A DNA stretch of 64,000 nt from Asanoa ishikariensis (GTDB lineage Bacteria > Actinomycetota > Actinomycetes > Mycobacteriales > Micromonosporaceae), in assembly GCF_900107455.1 (NCBI RefSeq), contig NZ_FNQB01000003.1, forward strand, positions 434,001 through 498,000, written 5' to 3'. A model generated the notes under the pieces. That model searched no databases, had not been told where the DNA came from, and was given only the letters and a program-made list of their open reading frames with translations. Below are positions 1 through 8,803 of this stretch, piece by piece (within the stretch, counting starts at the first letter, position 1; each line of letters opens with the position of its first letter). The translations under genes and the position numbers were made by a program.

Positions 1-213
1 GTAGCCGGTCACGCTGGTGTCGGCCCGTTCCGGCGCGGGCGCGGCCACCATGTCCGGGACACGACCCAGCACGGTGATGACGTGGCCGACGACGTCGCGC
101 ACCTGCCAGGGCGTGCACCGGGTGGGGCGCTCCCAGCCCGCCGCGGGCAGCGCGGCGACGAACGCGTGCGCCTCGGCGCGGAACGCGGACAGCACAGACT
201 CGCTCGACTCCAT
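1..213 (-). CDS. Mycothiol-dependent maleylpyruvate isomerase/DinB-type protein, N-terminal part
   Basis: The gene runs off the left edge of the window, leaving only the first 71 residues. Reading leftward from ATG at 213, the protein contains WERPTRCTPWQVRDVVGHV, the hallmark of the four-helix DinB/maleylpyruvate isomerase N-terminal fold, whose D-x-x-x-H element helps bind a divalent metal in mycothiol-dependent transferases. The substrate cannot be inferred. The frame is open without a stop from 213 to base 1. Confidence 0.72.
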   Translation of the reverse strand, partial: MESSESVLSAFRAEAHAFVAALPAAGWERPTRCTPWQVRDVVGHVITVLGRVPDMVAAPAPERADTSVTGY

Positions 214-1779: not shown

Positions 1780-3189
1780 GTGAGTGGCACGACGGCGGAG
1801 CCCCTCGACGGGCCCGACCCGTCGACGACCACGCGATGGCTGGAACGCCACCGCCCTGACCTGCACGCCGCCTACCTTCGCGAGCTACCGGCCGCGCGCG
1901 CGGCGATCCGGCACCGCCTGGTCACCGCGATCGCCCGCGAGCACCTCGACGGCCCGCGATCAACGGGCGAAGACCCCGCCGAGCTCCTGCGCGCCATGGG
2001 CCACGACGGGTTCGCCGCCGAGGTCGACAACAGCGTCGCCAACCTCGCCCTCGCGCAGGCCACCCAGCCCCACCCCGACGGCGGTCCCCCGGCCATCACG
2101 AGAGCGACCCCGCCGCACTGGGAGCAGCTCGTCGTCGACGGGCATCCGCTGCACCCCGGCTGCCGCACCCGCACGGGGATGACCACGGCGGACGTCCTCG
2201 CGTACGCCCCCGAGCACCGCACCGTCGTCGACCTCGTCCAGGTCGCCGTGCCCCCGGACCGCTGGCACACCACCGGCGCCGGCCTGCCCCCACTGCTGCA
2301 CCTGCACCCCTGGCAGGCCGAGCGGGTCGAAGAACTGCGCCGCGTCGGCACCCGCCCCGCGCGGCCGCTGATGTCGCTGCGCACCCTGGCCCCGCTCGAC
2401 GACCCGACCCTGCACCTCAAGACCGCGATCGACGCCCAGCTCACCAGCGCCGTGCGCACCGTGTCCCCGGCCGCCGTCGAAAACGGACCGAACCTGACCG
2501 GATTGCTGGCCAGCCTCAGCACGGACGTCACGATCCTGCGGGAGTACGCCGCCGGCGCCGTCCTCACCGACGGCCGACCCGACAGGCGCCTCGCCGTCGT
2601 CCACCGCCAGGCACCACCACCGGACGCGATCCCCGTCGGCGCGCTGTCCGCGCCCTCACCGGCCGACGGCGCCCCTCTGGCCCGTGAGGCCGTCCGCCTC
2701 GCCTACGGCGGCGACCCCCGGCCGTTCCTGTCCGACCTAACCCGCCTGCTCGTCAAAGGCCCTCTCGAACTGCTCGACCGCGGCATCGGCCTCGAGGCAC
2801 ACGGCCAGAACACCCTCGTCACCCTCCACCACGGACGCCCGGCCACCCTCTACTACCGCGACGTCGGCGGCATCCGGATCAACCCGGACAAGCTCGGGAC
2901 CACGCTGCCGCCCCTGCACGGCGACCTGACCGCCGCCGACCCCGACGAGCCCGAGACCACCCTGTTCGCCGCCCTCACCGTCGTGTTCGGACAACTCGTC
3001 GGCACCCTCGCCGGCGCCACCGACACCCCACCCGACGAGCTATGGGCCGCCGTCGCGAAGACCGCCGGCGAACGCCTCACCCGTCGCGACACCTTGCCGA
3101 TCAAAGCCACCACCACCATGCGCCTGGCCCCGGACCCACTGGAACCCCGCTGGGCGTACGTCCCGAACCCGCTCCTGGAGCACCGGTGA
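1780..3189 (+). CDS. IucA/IucC family NIS siderophore synthetase (first of two)
   Basis: A 469-residue NRPS-independent siderophore synthetase. These enzymes adenylate a carboxylate, usually citrate, and condense it with an amine or alcohol. The ATP-binding HPGCRTRTG motif is near residue 125, VENGPNLTGLL near 233, and GIGLEAHGQNTLV with YYRDVGGIRI near 337-365. It is shorter than the usual ~600 residues, mainly at the N terminus. GTG at 1780 gives a probably leaderless mRNA. Its stop overlaps the start of the next synthetase (GTGA), so the two are translationally coupled. The substrate pair cannot be read from sequence. Confidence 0.88.
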   Translation: MSGTTAEPLDGPDPSTTTRWLERHRPDLHAAYLRELPAARAAIRHRLVTAIAREHLDGPRSTGEDPAELLRAMGHDGFAAEVDNSVANLALAQATQPHPDGGPPAITRATPPHWEQLVVDGHPLHPGCRTRTGMTTADVLAYAPEHRTVVDLVQVAVPPDRWHTTGAGLPPLLHLHPWQAERVEELRRVGTRPARPLMSLRTLAPLDDPTLHLKTAIDAQLTSAVRTVSPAAVENGPNLTGLLASLSTDVTILREYAAGAVLTDGRPDRRLAVVHRQAPPPDAIPVGALSAPSPADGAPLAREAVRLAYGGDPRPFLSDLTRLLVKGPLELLDRGIGLEAHGQNTLVTLHHGRPATLYYRDVGGIRINPDKLGTTLPPLHGDLTAADPDEPETTLFAALTVVFGQLVGTLAGATDTPPDELWAAVAKTAGERLTRRDTLPIKATTTMRLAPDPLEPRWAYVPNPLLEHR

Positions 3190-4778
3190 ACAGCGATCTC
3201 GACCACGCCGCCCAGCACACCGCGCAACGCCTGACCCGGGTAGCGCCCGCGCTCGTCGGGCCGTTCCGGGCGGCCCTCCCGCACGCCGCCGCCACCGTCG
3301 GGCGCCGCCTCGCCGGCGCCCTCTACCGGGAGGACATCGGCGACGCCCGGGAACGGTTCGCCGGTGTCGGCCGCCGCCACGGCTTCGACCGCCTGGAGGT
3401 CGACAAGCTCGACGACCTGCCCGCCGGCCCCGCCGCGCTGCTCCCGCCCGGCCTGCCGGGCGCCGACGGCCTCGCCGAGGAGCTCACCGACGCGACCGTC
3501 AACCTCGCCCTCGCGTACGCCCGGCCCCAGCCGCCCGACCCCGGCCAGGACCCCGACGCCCGCGCCCTCGCCTACGAGCGCCTCGCGATCGACGGACACA
3601 ACCTGCACCCGTGCGGCCGCACCCGCCTCGGCTGGGACACCGCCGACACCCTCCGCCACGACGTCGAGGCCGGCAGCACCACGGTCGCGTTCGTCGCCGT
3701 GCACCCGGACCTGCACGTCGGCGACGACCTCGGCGCCACCCTCGCCGACCTCTACGACGACGTGCCACGCGGGCACGCGGTCATACCCGTGCACCAGTGG
3801 CAGCGCGACACCGTCCTGCGCCACCGCTACGCCGACCTCTACCGCGACGGACTGATCCGCGACCTCGACGGCACCCTGGACGCCGCACCCACCGCCGCCG
3901 TGCGCACCCTGCTGCTCCCACCGGCGAGTGACGGCCACCGCCGCTACCTGAAGGTCTCCCTCGACATCCAGGTCACCTCAACGCGCCGCAGCATCTCCAC
4001 CGCCAGCACCCGCAACGGCCCGGCGATCTCCACGCTCTTACACCGGCTCCTGGCCACAGACCCGACCGTCCTGCTGCTCGCCGAGACCGCCGGGACCGCC
4101 CTGACCGCCGGCGCCGGACGCGACGGCTCCGCGATCCTGCGCGCCGGCCTCGACGGCCATCTGAGCCCGGACGAGACCGCCATCCCCGGAGGCGGCCTGA
4201 CCGCCGGAGACACCCTCGACCGGCTCGTGCCAGCCGGAGCGGGGAATGCTCTCCGCTTCGTCGGCGACTACGGCCGGCTGCTCCTGCCCCCAGTGGTCAC
4301 CCTCGCCGCCCGGCACGGCATCGCCCTCGAAGCCCACCTCCAGAACTGCCTGCCCACCTTCGTCGACGGCCGCCCACACCGGATCGTCTTCCGCGACTTC
4401 GCCGGCCTGCGCATGTACCTGCCGCGCCTCGCCGACCCGCCGCCGCTGTGGCCCGGCTCCGTCATCGCCACCGACGACGTCGACGTCATGCGCGCCAAGC
4501 TCGGCTACACCGCCCTGCAGGCCCACCTCGGCGAAATCGTGGTGCGCCTCACCGGCTCCCACGACCTCGACGAGGACAGCGCCTGGCGGGCCATCCGCGA
4601 CGCCCTCGACGAGGCGTACGAGCCGCTGCTCGCCGACCCCGCCACCGCCGCCGCGGCCCGCGCCGACCACGCCGCCCTGACCGCCCGCACCGTCCCGCAC
4701 AAAGCACTCGTCCGGATGCGGCTCGCCGGACACGGCGACCGCTACGTGCCGGTGCACAATCCGCTACATGATCCCTGA
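3186..4778 (+). CDS. IucA/IucC family NIS siderophore synthetase (second of two)
   Basis: A 530-residue second NIS synthetase. The start is taken as GTG at 3186 because it overlaps the preceding TGA by four bases; upstream extension only reads through the previous gene. Family motifs: DGHNLHPCGRTRLGW near residue 140, STRNGPAISTLL near 275, and GIALEAHLQNCLPTF with FRDFAGLRMY near 377-405. Two synthetases in tandem suggest successive, asymmetric acylation of a citrate-type core. The next gene begins 11 bases before this one ends. Confidence 0.88.
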   Translation: MNSDLDHAAQHTAQRLTRVAPALVGPFRAALPHAAATVGRRLAGALYREDIGDARERFAGVGRRHGFDRLEVDKLDDLPAGPAALLPPGLPGADGLAEELTDATVNLALAYARPQPPDPGQDPDARALAYERLAIDGHNLHPCGRTRLGWDTADTLRHDVEAGSTTVAFVAVHPDLHVGDDLGATLADLYDDVPRGHAVIPVHQWQRDTVLRHRYADLYRDGLIRDLDGTLDAAPTAAVRTLLLPPASDGHRRYLKVSLDIQVTSTRRSISTASTRNGPAISTLLHRLLATDPTVLLLAETAGTALTAGAGRDGSAILRAGLDGHLSPDETAIPGGGLTAGDTLDRLVPAGAGNALRFVGDYGRLLLPPVVTLAARHGIALEAHLQNCLPTFVDGRPHRIVFRDFAGLRMYLPRLADPPPLWPGSVIATDDVDVMRAKLGYTALQAHLGEIVVRLTGSHDLDEDSAWRAIRDALDEAYEPLLADPATAAAARADHAALTARTVPHKALVRMRLAGHGDRYVPVHNPLHDP

Positions 4779-5913: not shown

Positions 5914-6714
5914 GTGACGACGCCAACCAGCCTGCGCTCCGGCCGCCGGGTCCACACCGGACGCCGCCTCGGCCAGGTGATCGGCCGCAAACCCACCGGC
6001 GTCACCGCCGGCCAGTGGAACACCGCCGCCAACGTCGTCGTCGACTACCTGATCACCGACCCCGACACCGACCGGCCCGACTTCGCCCTGCTCTTCACCG
6101 ACACCGCGGACACAAAAGTCGCCCGGATGACCACCAACGTCTGCGACGCCGTCGGCCTGCCCCTGCTGCGGATCACCTCACCGACCCTGACCGCGGCCGA
6201 GAACGGCACCCAGATCCTCGGCTACATCCTCGACGCGCGCGCCTTCGGCGCCGACGCCGACTTCGGCGGCTACCGCGACATCGTCGGCCGCCTCCCCGAC
6301 GGCCGCACCGGCTACGTCAACGACCTCTCCTCGGTCGCCCGCGCCACCGCCGTCGACGCGTACGCCGCCCGCCAGCTCTTCGACCCCATCATCCGCGGCA
6401 TCCGCGTCCACTGGACCGGCGGACCCGCCGAAGGATGGGCCTGGGTCCAGCTACACGAAGGCGGCTACGTCTTCGAACGCGTCCAGCTCGCTGAACACCG
6501 CACCACCTGCGGCGTGCCCGCCGACCGGCTCGCCGAGGACCTCGCCGGCGCCGCCATCGGCCAACGCCTCAAACTGCGCCACAGCGCCCAGCCGGACCTC
6601 GTCGACCTCGCACACATCGAGGCCCGGCTGAGGGAGCTGTCGACCCGCCGCGAAGAGCTGGTCGACGGCTTCCCCTACGAACACCTGCTGGTCGATCAGC
6701 CCGCCGCTCGATAG
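5914..6714 (+). CDS. Uncharacterised protein at the end of the siderophore operon
   Basis: A 266-residue soluble protein starting with GTG at 5914, nine bases after the decarboxylase. I do not recognise it firmly. The segment PDFALLFTDTADTKVARMTT and then AVGLPLLRI resembles the core of DUF2726-type nuclease-fold proteins, but the expected catalytic E-x-D-G and His are absent. It has no export signal, no membrane span and no ParB/SbnI signature. Tight spacing suggests a part in siderophore assembly or its control. It ends 19 bases into the convergent sigma/GH128 gene. Confidence 0.7.
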   Translation: MTTPTSLRSGRRVHTGRRLGQVIGRKPTGVTAGQWNTAANVVVDYLITDPDTDRPDFALLFTDTADTKVARMTTNVCDAVGLPLLRITSPTLTAAENGTQILGYILDARAFGADADFGGYRDIVGRLPDGRTGYVNDLSSVARATAVDAYAARQLFDPIIRGIRVHWTGGPAEGWAWVQLHEGGYVFERVQLAEHRTTCGVPADRLAEDLAGAAIGQRLKLRHSAQPDLVDLAHIEARLRELSTRREELVDGFPYEHLLVDQPAAR

Positions 6715-8732
6715 GCCGTACCCATCGGCGTCAACGCGCCACTCTCCTTGTACAGGCCGGTGTGGCTGTCACTCGTCGACGGCAACCCGAACCACGAGTA
6801 GCGCTCCACGTACGACAGGCCCTCCAGCATGTCCGTCGCCCCGTTGATGAACGCCACCTGCTGCGCGTCCGTCGGATAGTGCGCACCCGACCCGTCGAAC
6901 CGGATCAACGCGAACTCCGTCAACCAGATCGGCAGCTTGTACTTCGCGTACACCTGCTGGATGTAGCCCCGCAGCTGCCCGACGGCCGCCGCCGAGAAGT
7001 CACCCCCGTACCAGTGCAGGGTGATGAAGTCGACCCGGTAGCCCTTGTCCTTCGCACCCTTCATGAACTGGTCCAGCCACTTGCCGCTGTCCGCCGCACC
7101 GAACGCCACCGACGGGCTGCCCAACCGCATCCCCGTCGCCTGCAGCTTCGGCCACAGCTCCAACGCCTTCGCCGGCGTCATGTTCGCCTGCTCCGCCATG
7201 TCCGGCTCGTTGAACCCCAGCAGCGTGTCACCCTCGCGCTTGGCCTGCGCCAACGTCGAGTCGGTGGCGTTCGCCGTGCCCCAGATCATCGGTACGAACT
7301 CGACACCCGACGCCGGCATCCGGTCGTTGTTCGCACCCCAGTTGTAGTACCAGGACGCGCCCACCGCCTTCAGGCCCGCGCTCACCTTGGGGAAGTCCCA
7401 GACCGCGGCACCCTTCTTCTCCGTCGTGCCGGTAGGCGGCAACGGCGCCCGCTGCGTCTTCTTCACGGTCGGCTTCGCGGTGGGCGAGACCGTCGCCGAC
7501 GGCACGGCCGTCGGACTCGGCGTCGCATCAGGGGATACGAGCGACGACGCACTGGCGCTCACCGGAGGCAACACGGCCGCGGCGGGCACCGCGTCCCCGT
7601 TGCGGACCACGCCGAACGTGACCACCGCCGTCGTCGCCACCGCCACCGTGGCGACCGCGGCCGCCACCGGCTTGCTGATCAGGAACCCCTTCACCAACCA
7701 GCCCGCGCTCTTGGCGGCCGTACTCGCGGCACCCACCGCACCGGAGCCGCCTGCCCCCGTGGCGGCGGCTCCCACGGTCGAGGCTCCACCGAGGCCCGGC
7801 ATCGCCGCCGTCGTGCCCGCCACCTCAGCGCCCCACGCGCCGGCCGCCGTGCTCCCCGTGCCTGTCCACGCGGCCGCGCCACTGGTCGCCGCGGTCCAGC
7901 CCGCGCCACCGACGGCACCGCCGGCCACCGCACCAGCGGCCGAGCTCACCATCGCCGCCACCAGACCCGCCGCCGGCGCCACCAGGCCGATACCGGCCAG
8001 CAGCCGCTCCGCCGCGACGAGCTGCTCCGACGCCGGCCCGCAGTACGCGCACTCCCGGATGTGCCGGGAGAGCCGCTTGCGCCACAGCGCGTCCGGATGC
8101 CCGGACCAGCCCGCCAGCACCCCGATCAGCTCCGGGCAACGCGGCCGGCTGGACAACGCCCGCACCACCGCCCGGGCCGTATCGAGGGTCGCCTTCATCC
8201 GCTGGACGCGTACCGCCGCGTGCTGGTTCGTCACCCCCAACGACTGCGCCAGCTCGTCACGGGTCAGCTCGCCGGAGGCCTCCAGCCACCACAGCGACAG
8301 CAGCTCCTGATCGTCCTGGTCGAGCCAGCGGGTCGCCTCGACGACCTCACGCCGCTGACCGGACAGCTCCAACCGCAGAATCGTCAGGTTGGCGAAGTCC
8401 GCACCCGGGTCGGTGACGTCGTCGCTGCCCGGGTAGCCGAGCTGACCGGCCTGCCGCGCCCGGTAGGGGTCCGACTGCCGATCCCGCACCTGCCGCACCG
8501 CGATCGCGACCAGCCACGCCCGGAAGCTCGCCGGATCGCGCAGCCCCCGCAGCCCCGTGACACAGCGAAGCATCGTCTCCTGAACGACGTCGTCGACGTC
8601 GGCGTGCCCGTCGAGCGCTCGACCGACGACGTTGTAGACCAGTGGTAGGTATTCCGCCACGAGCCGTTCGACCGCCCGCGGATCACCGTCCTGAGCGGCG
8701 AGCACCAACGCCCGCTCATACCCTTCGCGCAT
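6696..8732 (-). CDS. ECF sigma factor fused to zinc-finger, membrane span and GH128 glycosidase
   Basis: A 678-residue multidomain protein. Residues 1-190 are sigma-70 regions 2 and 4 (VDDVVQETMLRCV; QSLGVTNQHAAVRVQRM). Near 224, HIRECAYC matches the HxxxCxxC zinc motif of anti-sigma factors. An Ala/Gly-rich stretch, a transmembrane helix (about 347-370) and a Pro/Ser/Thr linker follow. From about 442 to the end is a GH128 (Asl1-like) glucanase domain with GFNEPD (acid/base) and IWLTEFA (nucleophile). ATG at 8732 was chosen over an ATG 36 bases upstream because AAGGAG lies six bases before it. The architecture implies an intracellular regulator tethered to an extracellular glycan-active sensor; proteolytic release is possible but not shown. 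Confidence 0.9.
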   Translation of the reverse strand: MREGYERALVLAAQDGDPRAVERLVAEYLPLVYNVVGRALDGHADVDDVVQETMLRCVTGLRGLRDPASFRAWLVAIAVRQVRDRQSDPYRARQAGQLGYPGSDDVTDPGADFANLTILRLELSGQRREVVEATRWLDQDDQELLSLWWLEASGELTRDELAQSLGVTNQHAAVRVQRMKATLDTARAVVRALSSRPRCPELIGVLAGWSGHPDALWRKRLSRHIRECAYCGPASEQLVAAERLLAGIGLVAPAAGLVAAMVSSAAGAVAGGAVGGAGWTAATSGAAAWTGTGSTAAGAWGAEVAGTTAAMPGLGGASTVGAAATGAGGSGAVGAASTAAKSAGWLVKGFLISKPVAAAVATVAVATTAVVTFGVVRNGDAVPAAAVLPPVSASASSLVSPDATPSPTAVPSATVSPTAKPTVKKTQRAPLPPTGTTEKKGAAVWDFPKVSAGLKAVGASWYYNWGANNDRMPASGVEFVPMIWGTANATDSTLAQAKREGDTLLGFNEPDMAEQANMTPAKALELWPKLQATGMRLGSPSVAFGAADSGKWLDQFMKGAKDKGYRVDFITLHWYGGDFSAAAVGQLRGYIQQVYAKYKLPIWLTEFALIRFDGSGAHYPTDAQQVAFINGATDMLEGLSYVERYSWFGLPSTSDSHTGLYKESGALTPMGTAYRAAG

Positions 8733-8803
8733 CGCACCTCTCCTTGAAGCCGCCCCATCGTGGCTCACAGGAGACGACCAAGGCGACCGCCGGATAACAC
8801 AAT

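Follow-up and report, generated by a model that had tools for sequence, protein, structure and literature searches.

An extracytoplasmic function sigma factor fused to a GH128 glycosidase domain and preceded by a conserved putative promoter in Asanoa ishikariensis

We analyzed a stretch of 64,000 nucleotides (the window) from the 9.09-Mb genome of Asanoa ishikariensis, in which one gene encodes a polypeptide that combines an extracytoplasmic function (ECF) sigma factor, a zinc motif like those of anti-sigma factors, a predicted membrane segment and a glycoside hydrolase (GH) domain of family GH128. The sigma-GH128 fusion is a genuine single gene, and what is new here is its conserved ECF-like promoter together with its apparently intact active site. 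It is reasonably likely, in our judgment, that the product is a one-protein signaling system of the ECF52/ECF53 type, held at the membrane and released by proteolysis when glucan is encountered.

The reading frame starts with ATG, encodes 678 amino acids followed by a stop codon, and carries all domains on one chain (Table 1). An in-frame GTG at position 8768 was considered as a start and is unlikely, because the putative -10 element ends at 8770 and the codon would lie at or before the start of the transcript. A preliminary description, made from the letters of the window, had placed sigma regions 2 and 4, a zinc motif, a membrane span and an intact GH128 active site in one polypeptide, and had named a frameshift joining two genes as a finding that would overturn it. 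Such a frameshift is excluded: the fusion occupies a single open frame in all six Asanoa genomes, the source genome included, as well as in 19 named strains from other genera. The other five Asanoa proteins are 83-95% identical to it overall. The match was split in one Asanoa genome, yet the frame there is single (672 codons). The nearest named relative among the matches listed was that of Asanoa siamensis, with 83% identity over the sigma and zinc part.

Profile searches and alignments confirmed both sigma regions, the zinc motif, the GH128 domain and their order. Sigma-70 region 2 was matched in Pfam with an E value of 1.3e-12 (the Pfam numbering for Sigma70_r2 begins 12 residues earlier than the 678-residue numbering used here), and residues 20-183 matched the curated model TIGR02937 (sigma70-ECF) at 71 bits (cut-off 42.9). 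Regions 2 and 4 are the only sigma regions present, as in ECF factors. The best PDB profile matches of this part were also ECF factors, and six of the seven best matches in a fold search were chains of ECF sigma/anti-sigma complexes (1or7, 8z6g, 4cxf, 6in7). Behind the sigma factor stands the motif H224xxxC228xxC231, with C199 as a candidate fourth ligand, which agrees with the zinc-binding anti-sigma (ZAS) type in having HxxxCxxC and a further ligand. The four residues are invariant in 26 of 26 aligned GH128 fusions, which amount to 25 distinct proteins because two rows (L013 and L034) are identical, and likewise in the 55 sequences of a separate alignment (A4). The pattern C-(12..26)-WRKR...HxxxCxxC was present in 80 of 80 named relatives. 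Judging from motif and position, we infer that the segment acts like a ZAS domain. An Ala/Gly-rich stretch leads from it to a hydrophobic segment of 19 residues (358-376), and each of the 26 rows has a corresponding segment.

The C-terminal domain matched Glyco_hydro_cc (PF11790) with an E value of 1.3e-54. Its closest solved structures are those of AmGH128_I, with 56% identity and TM-scores, normalized by the target, of 0.93-0.96 (0.95 for 6uaq), and its sequence, fold and catalytic pair place it in GH128 subgroup I. The acid/base E509 and the nucleophile E606 are invariant in the 26 aligned rows, so that the presence of both glutamates in 25 of 25 distinct fusions bears out the intact active site of the preliminary description. 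In the GH128 enzyme CBM6E, residues N167, E168, H245, Y247 and E272 lie around the -1 subsite (PMC10956234). When the correspondence is read from motifs, all 26 rows share N508, E509, H573 and E606, and 25 of them have Y575. The active site, and with it the enzyme, appears to be intact.

Named genomes were scanned with the sigma and zinc part, and the best 80 of at least 399 relatives were kept, a sample rather than a census; all 80 record titles name actinobacteria. Outer domains were sorted with small profiles of our own, each built from 2-6 sequences, into GH128 (20, including Asanoa siamensis), CAP (38), an unnamed domain (9), AbfB (2) and other (2, one of which, L110, contains masked bases), and the remaining nine members were cut by the contig end. 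A Pfam scan of nine of the 80 confirmed the outer-domain types. A CAP-family domain thus takes the place of the glycosidase in 38 of 80 relatives (L047, L063 and L066 were checked with Pfam). The nine relatives with an unnamed outer domain (e.g., L041:2529-4199, L080:3983-5620 and L111:4025-5722) share a motif like LFHVASGGGRRMDD, and this domain is a candidate sensor or enzyme; Pfam gave no outer-domain match in the three scanned members (L041, L080 and L111) nor in L086. The source genome also holds a paralogue (L002:1219-2604; C5:369819-370895) with a sigma part, the zinc motif and, by Pfam, an AbfB outer domain, 43% identical over the matched part. Similar paralogues, their outer domain judged by likeness, occur in four other Asanoa genomes (L015, L016, L017 and L019).

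The GH128 domain also exists outside the fusion. Thirty-one relatives were searched with PF11790, and of the 13 matches 12 were strong, namely eight sigma fusions (the six of Asanoa, G011 and G015) and four free GH128 proteins. One free GH128 protein is 74% identical to a fused domain that is itself 58% identical to that of the window. Inspected by eye, the four free proteins, from other genera (L209, L210, L211 and L213), have a hydrophobic segment at the N-terminus and a linker rich in Pro, Ser and Ala; in this they resemble the outer half of the fusion, with no sigma part in front. In a tree of the sigma domains, the nine contig-cut rows were counted as a label of their own, which inflates the number of changes, and two of them sit among GH128 rows. 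This tree suggests separate gains of GH128, with weakly supported branches between the two GH128 groups.

The DNA upstream of the gene is conserved in the six Asanoa genomes around TGTTATCC-N16-GTCTCC. The exact pattern TGTTATC-N15..18-GTCTCC occurs once per genome in six of six, always before the sigma-GH128 gene, and the reversed pattern, searched as a control, had zero exact matches. None of the AbfB-type paralogues of Asanoa has an exact copy in this search of the six genomes. In the 250 bases upstream of the relatives, TGTTATC-N15..18-GTCTC was found with at most one mismatch in 55 of 80 (0.05 expected) and with at most two in 65 of 80 (0.8 expected); the expectations come from first-order random sequences of equal make-up, and the counts come from related genes and are not independent events. 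Sorted by outer domain, at most one mismatch was seen in 19/20 GH128, 8/9 unnamed, 23/38 CAP, 2/2 other, 3/9 contig-cut and 0/2 AbfB members. Because the motif was initially noticed upstream of GH128 members, the 60 relatives without a recognized GH128 domain, of which 36 have it with at most one mismatch, are the fairer test. L212, a further fusion outside the motif definition, also has the exact promoter. Autoregulation is common among ECF factors, and recognition of this promoter by the sigma part is therefore the simplest interpretation. As the ECF-like promoter is co-conserved just upstream, the sigma part probably works and drives its own gene.

Further targets were sought in the six Asanoa genomes. 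The looser pattern TGTTATC-N15..17-GTC gave 25 sites against six for the reversed control. A recurrent set in five genomes, with the spacer GAGGGTGACC, was dropped as coding conservation because it lies antisense within a long coding frame in all five; we take this frame to be that of Lon protease. In a pair of sites from two genomes (G001 and G003), the G001 copy falls within a frame of the opposite strand. With two mismatches allowed, there were 17-31 sites per genome at a 17-base gap (10-16 for the reversed control) and at least 45-65 at a 16-base gap (9-17), an excess that perhaps comes from coding bias. In the source genome two one-mismatch sites have a 17-base gap, one of which overlaps with a coding frame of the opposite strand. 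One two-mismatch site (L215 around 1487-1516; C2:354452-354481 of the source genome) is identical in six of six genomes, with an unnamed open reading frame about 130 bases farther on; it could be a second target or chance. Two other recurrent sets, in four and three genomes, have no clear gene start near, as judged by the source-genome copy, and the 3-kb stretches around the three recurrent two-mismatch sites had no Rfam match.

In the mechanism that we favor, the N-terminal ECF sigma factor would be kept inactive by the anti-sigma-like zinc segment fused behind it, and one membrane helix would anchor the chain with the GH128 domain outside. This domain would meet beta-1,3-glucan of fungal, plant or algal origin and cut or bind it, and as a result membrane proteolysis would cut the anchor. 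Once free, the N-terminal part would join RNA polymerase and direct it to TGTTATC-N15..18-GTCTCC promoters, that of its own gene first. Site-2 protease homologues are present in the source genome, but they are in all 14 control genomes too. Since the hydrophobic segment starts with PVAAAVATVAV, handling by ClpXP as reported for RsgI6 (see below) is conceivable; the fused sigma factor would have to escape complete degradation. According to the preliminary description, the fusion would join glycan hydrolysis or binding directly to promoter choice. This interpretation is partly supported: the domains, their order and the likeness to ECF52/ECF53 proteins were given correctly, and the co-conserved promoter speaks for a working sigma factor. 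Membrane insertion, glucanase activity and their coupling are what we infer.

Several observations weigh against this mechanism. The AlphaFold model has no helix at the Ala/Val-rich segment 358-376 (pLDDT, the per-residue confidence, is 25-29), so that the membrane span of the preliminary description stands as a conserved hydrophobic segment but not as a modeled helix. In Asanoa residues 244-262 form another stretch of similar hydrophobicity, and if both crossed the membrane the enzyme would be inside. In the 19 rows of other genera this stretch, which in Asanoa may be a second span or a helix lying on the membrane, is clearly less hydrophobic and is interrupted by prolines. By hydropathy, the simplest topology common to all rows is therefore a single span that leaves the enzyme outside. 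Superposition of the best full-length fold matches was poor overall (root mean square deviation of 13-25 Å), as would follow from a different placement of the domains; therefore the model leaves the seat of the zinc segment on the sigma domains undefined (pTM 0.53). The six Pfam families and the 25 of 44 NCBIfam matches listed included no curated model of an anti-sigma zinc finger. As to the promoter, 25 of the 80 relatives have two or more mismatches, and L208, a second further fusion, has no exact copy within the stretch examined. Another motif may serve the exceptions, namely the members with AbfB and a group of Streptomyces CAP members that includes L056, L059, L065, L067, L069, L070, L078 and L081. 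The looser sites are numerous, and a second target, the site identical in six genomes included, is thus a candidate at most. Finally, none of the seven neighboring open reading frames scanned is a recognized glucan-use gene.

Other explanations start from the same protein. The GH128 domain could be a sensor that only binds, an enzyme fold used for ligand recognition whose catalysis is irrelevant or lost, and we regard this as possible though doubtful. The precedent is the GH10 domain of RsgI6, which binds carbohydrates with very low activity although it is 57% identical to the active xylanase Xyn10D (PMC4711584), so that high similarity to an active enzyme is compatible with low activity; other members of the sigma family also have a binding module (AbfB) or a CAP domain outside. 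However, the fusions retain both glutamates and the -1 subsite residues, and in a small tree of 12 rows, in which three of nine inner branches are well supported, the fused domains intermix with the four free GH128 proteins. A sigma part without promoter activity, a mere relic, is very improbable: the sigma region is 60-75% identical to that of the window in the 19 fusions from other genera, against only 26-38% for the linker region, and the promoter has been conserved along with it in different genera and with different types of outer domain.

It is also tentatively conceivable that the protein is mainly a membrane-anchored glucanase, with a sigma part that amplifies its own gene in positive feedback and has no wider regulon. 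The single exact promoter per Asanoa genome fits this, as does the fact that none of the six genomes has another strong PF11790 gene besides the fusion (a weak additional match occurs in one of them), and at 15 of the 20 GH128 loci, those of the Actinoplanes group, the transcript may also carry a sugar-oxidizing enzyme. Against it, weaker promoters are possible, since two-mismatch sites exceed the reversed control, perhaps through coding bias, and one of them is identical in all six genomes; in addition, the ECF52 protein SCO4117 has a broad effect on transcription (PMC5826349). A more specific scheme, in which catalysis rather than mere binding is the input, the released sigma factor chiefly re-activates its own gene, and sister genes swap the outer module (GH128, CAP or unnamed) on the same sigma part, zinc motif and promoter, is a speculation to which we give a rather low probability. 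If true, it would describe a self-contained module that senses, cuts and amplifies, one switch plugged into many surface enzymes or sensors.

Should the favored mechanism of glucan-triggered release hold, a single molecule would connect the processing of glycans outside the cell with promoter choice, and the family would supply natural module swaps ready for use. The promoter offers a simple reporter for asking whether the outer domains act as enzymes, as sensors or as both, and how a sigma factor bound to the membrane escapes an inhibitor on the same chain. Because the promoter is conserved and the active site apparently intact, the circuit is open to direct tests.

Table 1. Positions in the window of the sigma-GH128 gene, its parts and its upstream elements.
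Feature	Position	Strand	Basis or remark
Coding sequence: ECF sigma factor, ZAS-like motif, membrane segment, linker and GH128	6696..8732	-	
GH128 domain (residues 438-678), subgroup I-like	6699..7421	-	E509 and E606 intact
Pro/Ser/Thr-rich linker (residues 381-437)	7422..7592	-	Sequence; low pLDDT
Predicted transmembrane segment (residues 358-376)	7605..7661	-	Hydropathy; counterpart in 26/26 rows
Hydrophobic stretch (residues 244-262)	7947..8003	-	Strongly hydrophobic only in Asanoa among 26 rows
ZAS-like anti-sigma motif (C199, H224, C228, C231)	8040..8138	-	Invariant in 26/26 rows; pattern in 80/80 relatives
Sigma region 4 (about residues 139-183)	8184..8318	-	TIGR02937 span 20-183; helices in model
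Sigma-70 region 2 (residues 24-85)	8478..8663	-	Pfam PF04542
Shine-Dalgarno-like AGGAGAGG	8737..8744	-	Precedes ATG at 8732; kept in upstream alignment of 6 genomes
Putative autoregulated ECF promoter	8770..8799	-	-35 TGTTATC 8793-8799, 17-base gap, -10 GTCTCC 8770-8775

Upstream of the gene are an arginase-family gene on the same strand and then a peptide deformylase gene. Downstream follow a convergent gene for a protein of 266 amino acids (5914-6714, plus strand), which had no Pfam or NCBIfam match, an amino acid decarboxylase-like gene and an IucA/IucC siderophore synthase gene. None of the seven neighboring open reading frames scanned matched an anti-sigma family, in agreement with the earlier statement that a separate anti-sigma factor is lacking. 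The 15 Actinoplanes-group loci mentioned above have, 10-70 bases after the stop codon, a start motif like that of F420-dependent glucose-6-phosphate dehydrogenase, the gap being 10-23 bases in 14 of them. The two dehydrogenase-like genes that were scanned (L039:5948-6955 and L045:5864-6859) matched TIGR03554 above its cut-off. This arrangement suggests a two-gene transcript, and it is possible that glucan-derived glucose is linked to F420 reduction. At one GH128 locus (L040, minus strand), an RsbW-like HATPase gene (3339-3755) and a SpoIIE-type phosphatase gene (2078-3241) lie divergently upstream, and the start motif of the RsbW-like gene was found in 13 of the 20 GH128 loci.

Several known systems resemble the window protein. 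In the SigI6/RsgI6 system of Clostridium thermocellum an outer GH domain (GH10) also controls an inner sigma factor, and the sigma factor is autoregulated (PMC4711584, PMC12203970). There, however, sigma and anti-sigma are separate proteins, and sigma-I is only partly ECF-like (PMC4711584), whereas the window protein is one polypeptide with an ECF-type sigma factor and falls outside the SigI/RsgI systems. RsgI6 is processed by self-cleavage, then RseP and then ClpXP, which reads XAA motifs in the membrane helix (PMC12203970). An RsgI-type autocleavage domain did not turn up in the Pfam scan of our protein, and no further search for it was made. IutY (ECF243) of Pseudomonas putida likewise unites a sigma factor and its membrane anti-sigma part in one protein and is released by Prc and RseP, but its signal is a siderophore, aerobactin, and not an attached enzyme (PMC8999054). 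The endo-beta-1,3-glucanase AmGH128_I of Amycolatopsis mediterranei (PDB 6uaq) shares both catalytic glutamates and 56% identity with the outer domain, but the crystallized chain is a GH128 domain alone.

The closest likeness is to ECF52 and ECF53, as the preliminary description had rightly suggested. Both the published proteins and ours have an ECF domain, a zinc finger, a membrane helix (a predicted one in ours), a Pro-rich stretch and a carbohydrate-related outer domain in one chain, in agreement with PMC8999054 and PMC5826349. The layout of one or two membrane helices behind a zinc finger, with a long outer part, in Actinobacteria is found here as well, the helix by hydropathy only; the comparison is one of published layout. 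Activation by proteolytic release has been proposed for ECF48, ECF52 and ECF53 (PMC8999054), and truncation data exist for SCO4117 of Streptomyces coelicolor. SCO4117 differs in having a carbohydrate-binding module outside instead of GH128, and its proposed motif is CSGYN-17-SRHA, against TGTTATC-N15..18-GTCTCC here (PMC5826349). No paper on a GH128-sigma fusion was found in the literature searched, which left out most subscription papers; the single paper there that mentions both GH128 and a sigma factor deals with a microbial consortium. Some ECF52/ECF53 proteins have predicted glycosyl hydrolase catalytic domains (reviewed in PMC10766802, citing Huang 2015 and Pinto 2019). Because this class is already in print, the GH128 fusion is a further member of it and not a new kind.

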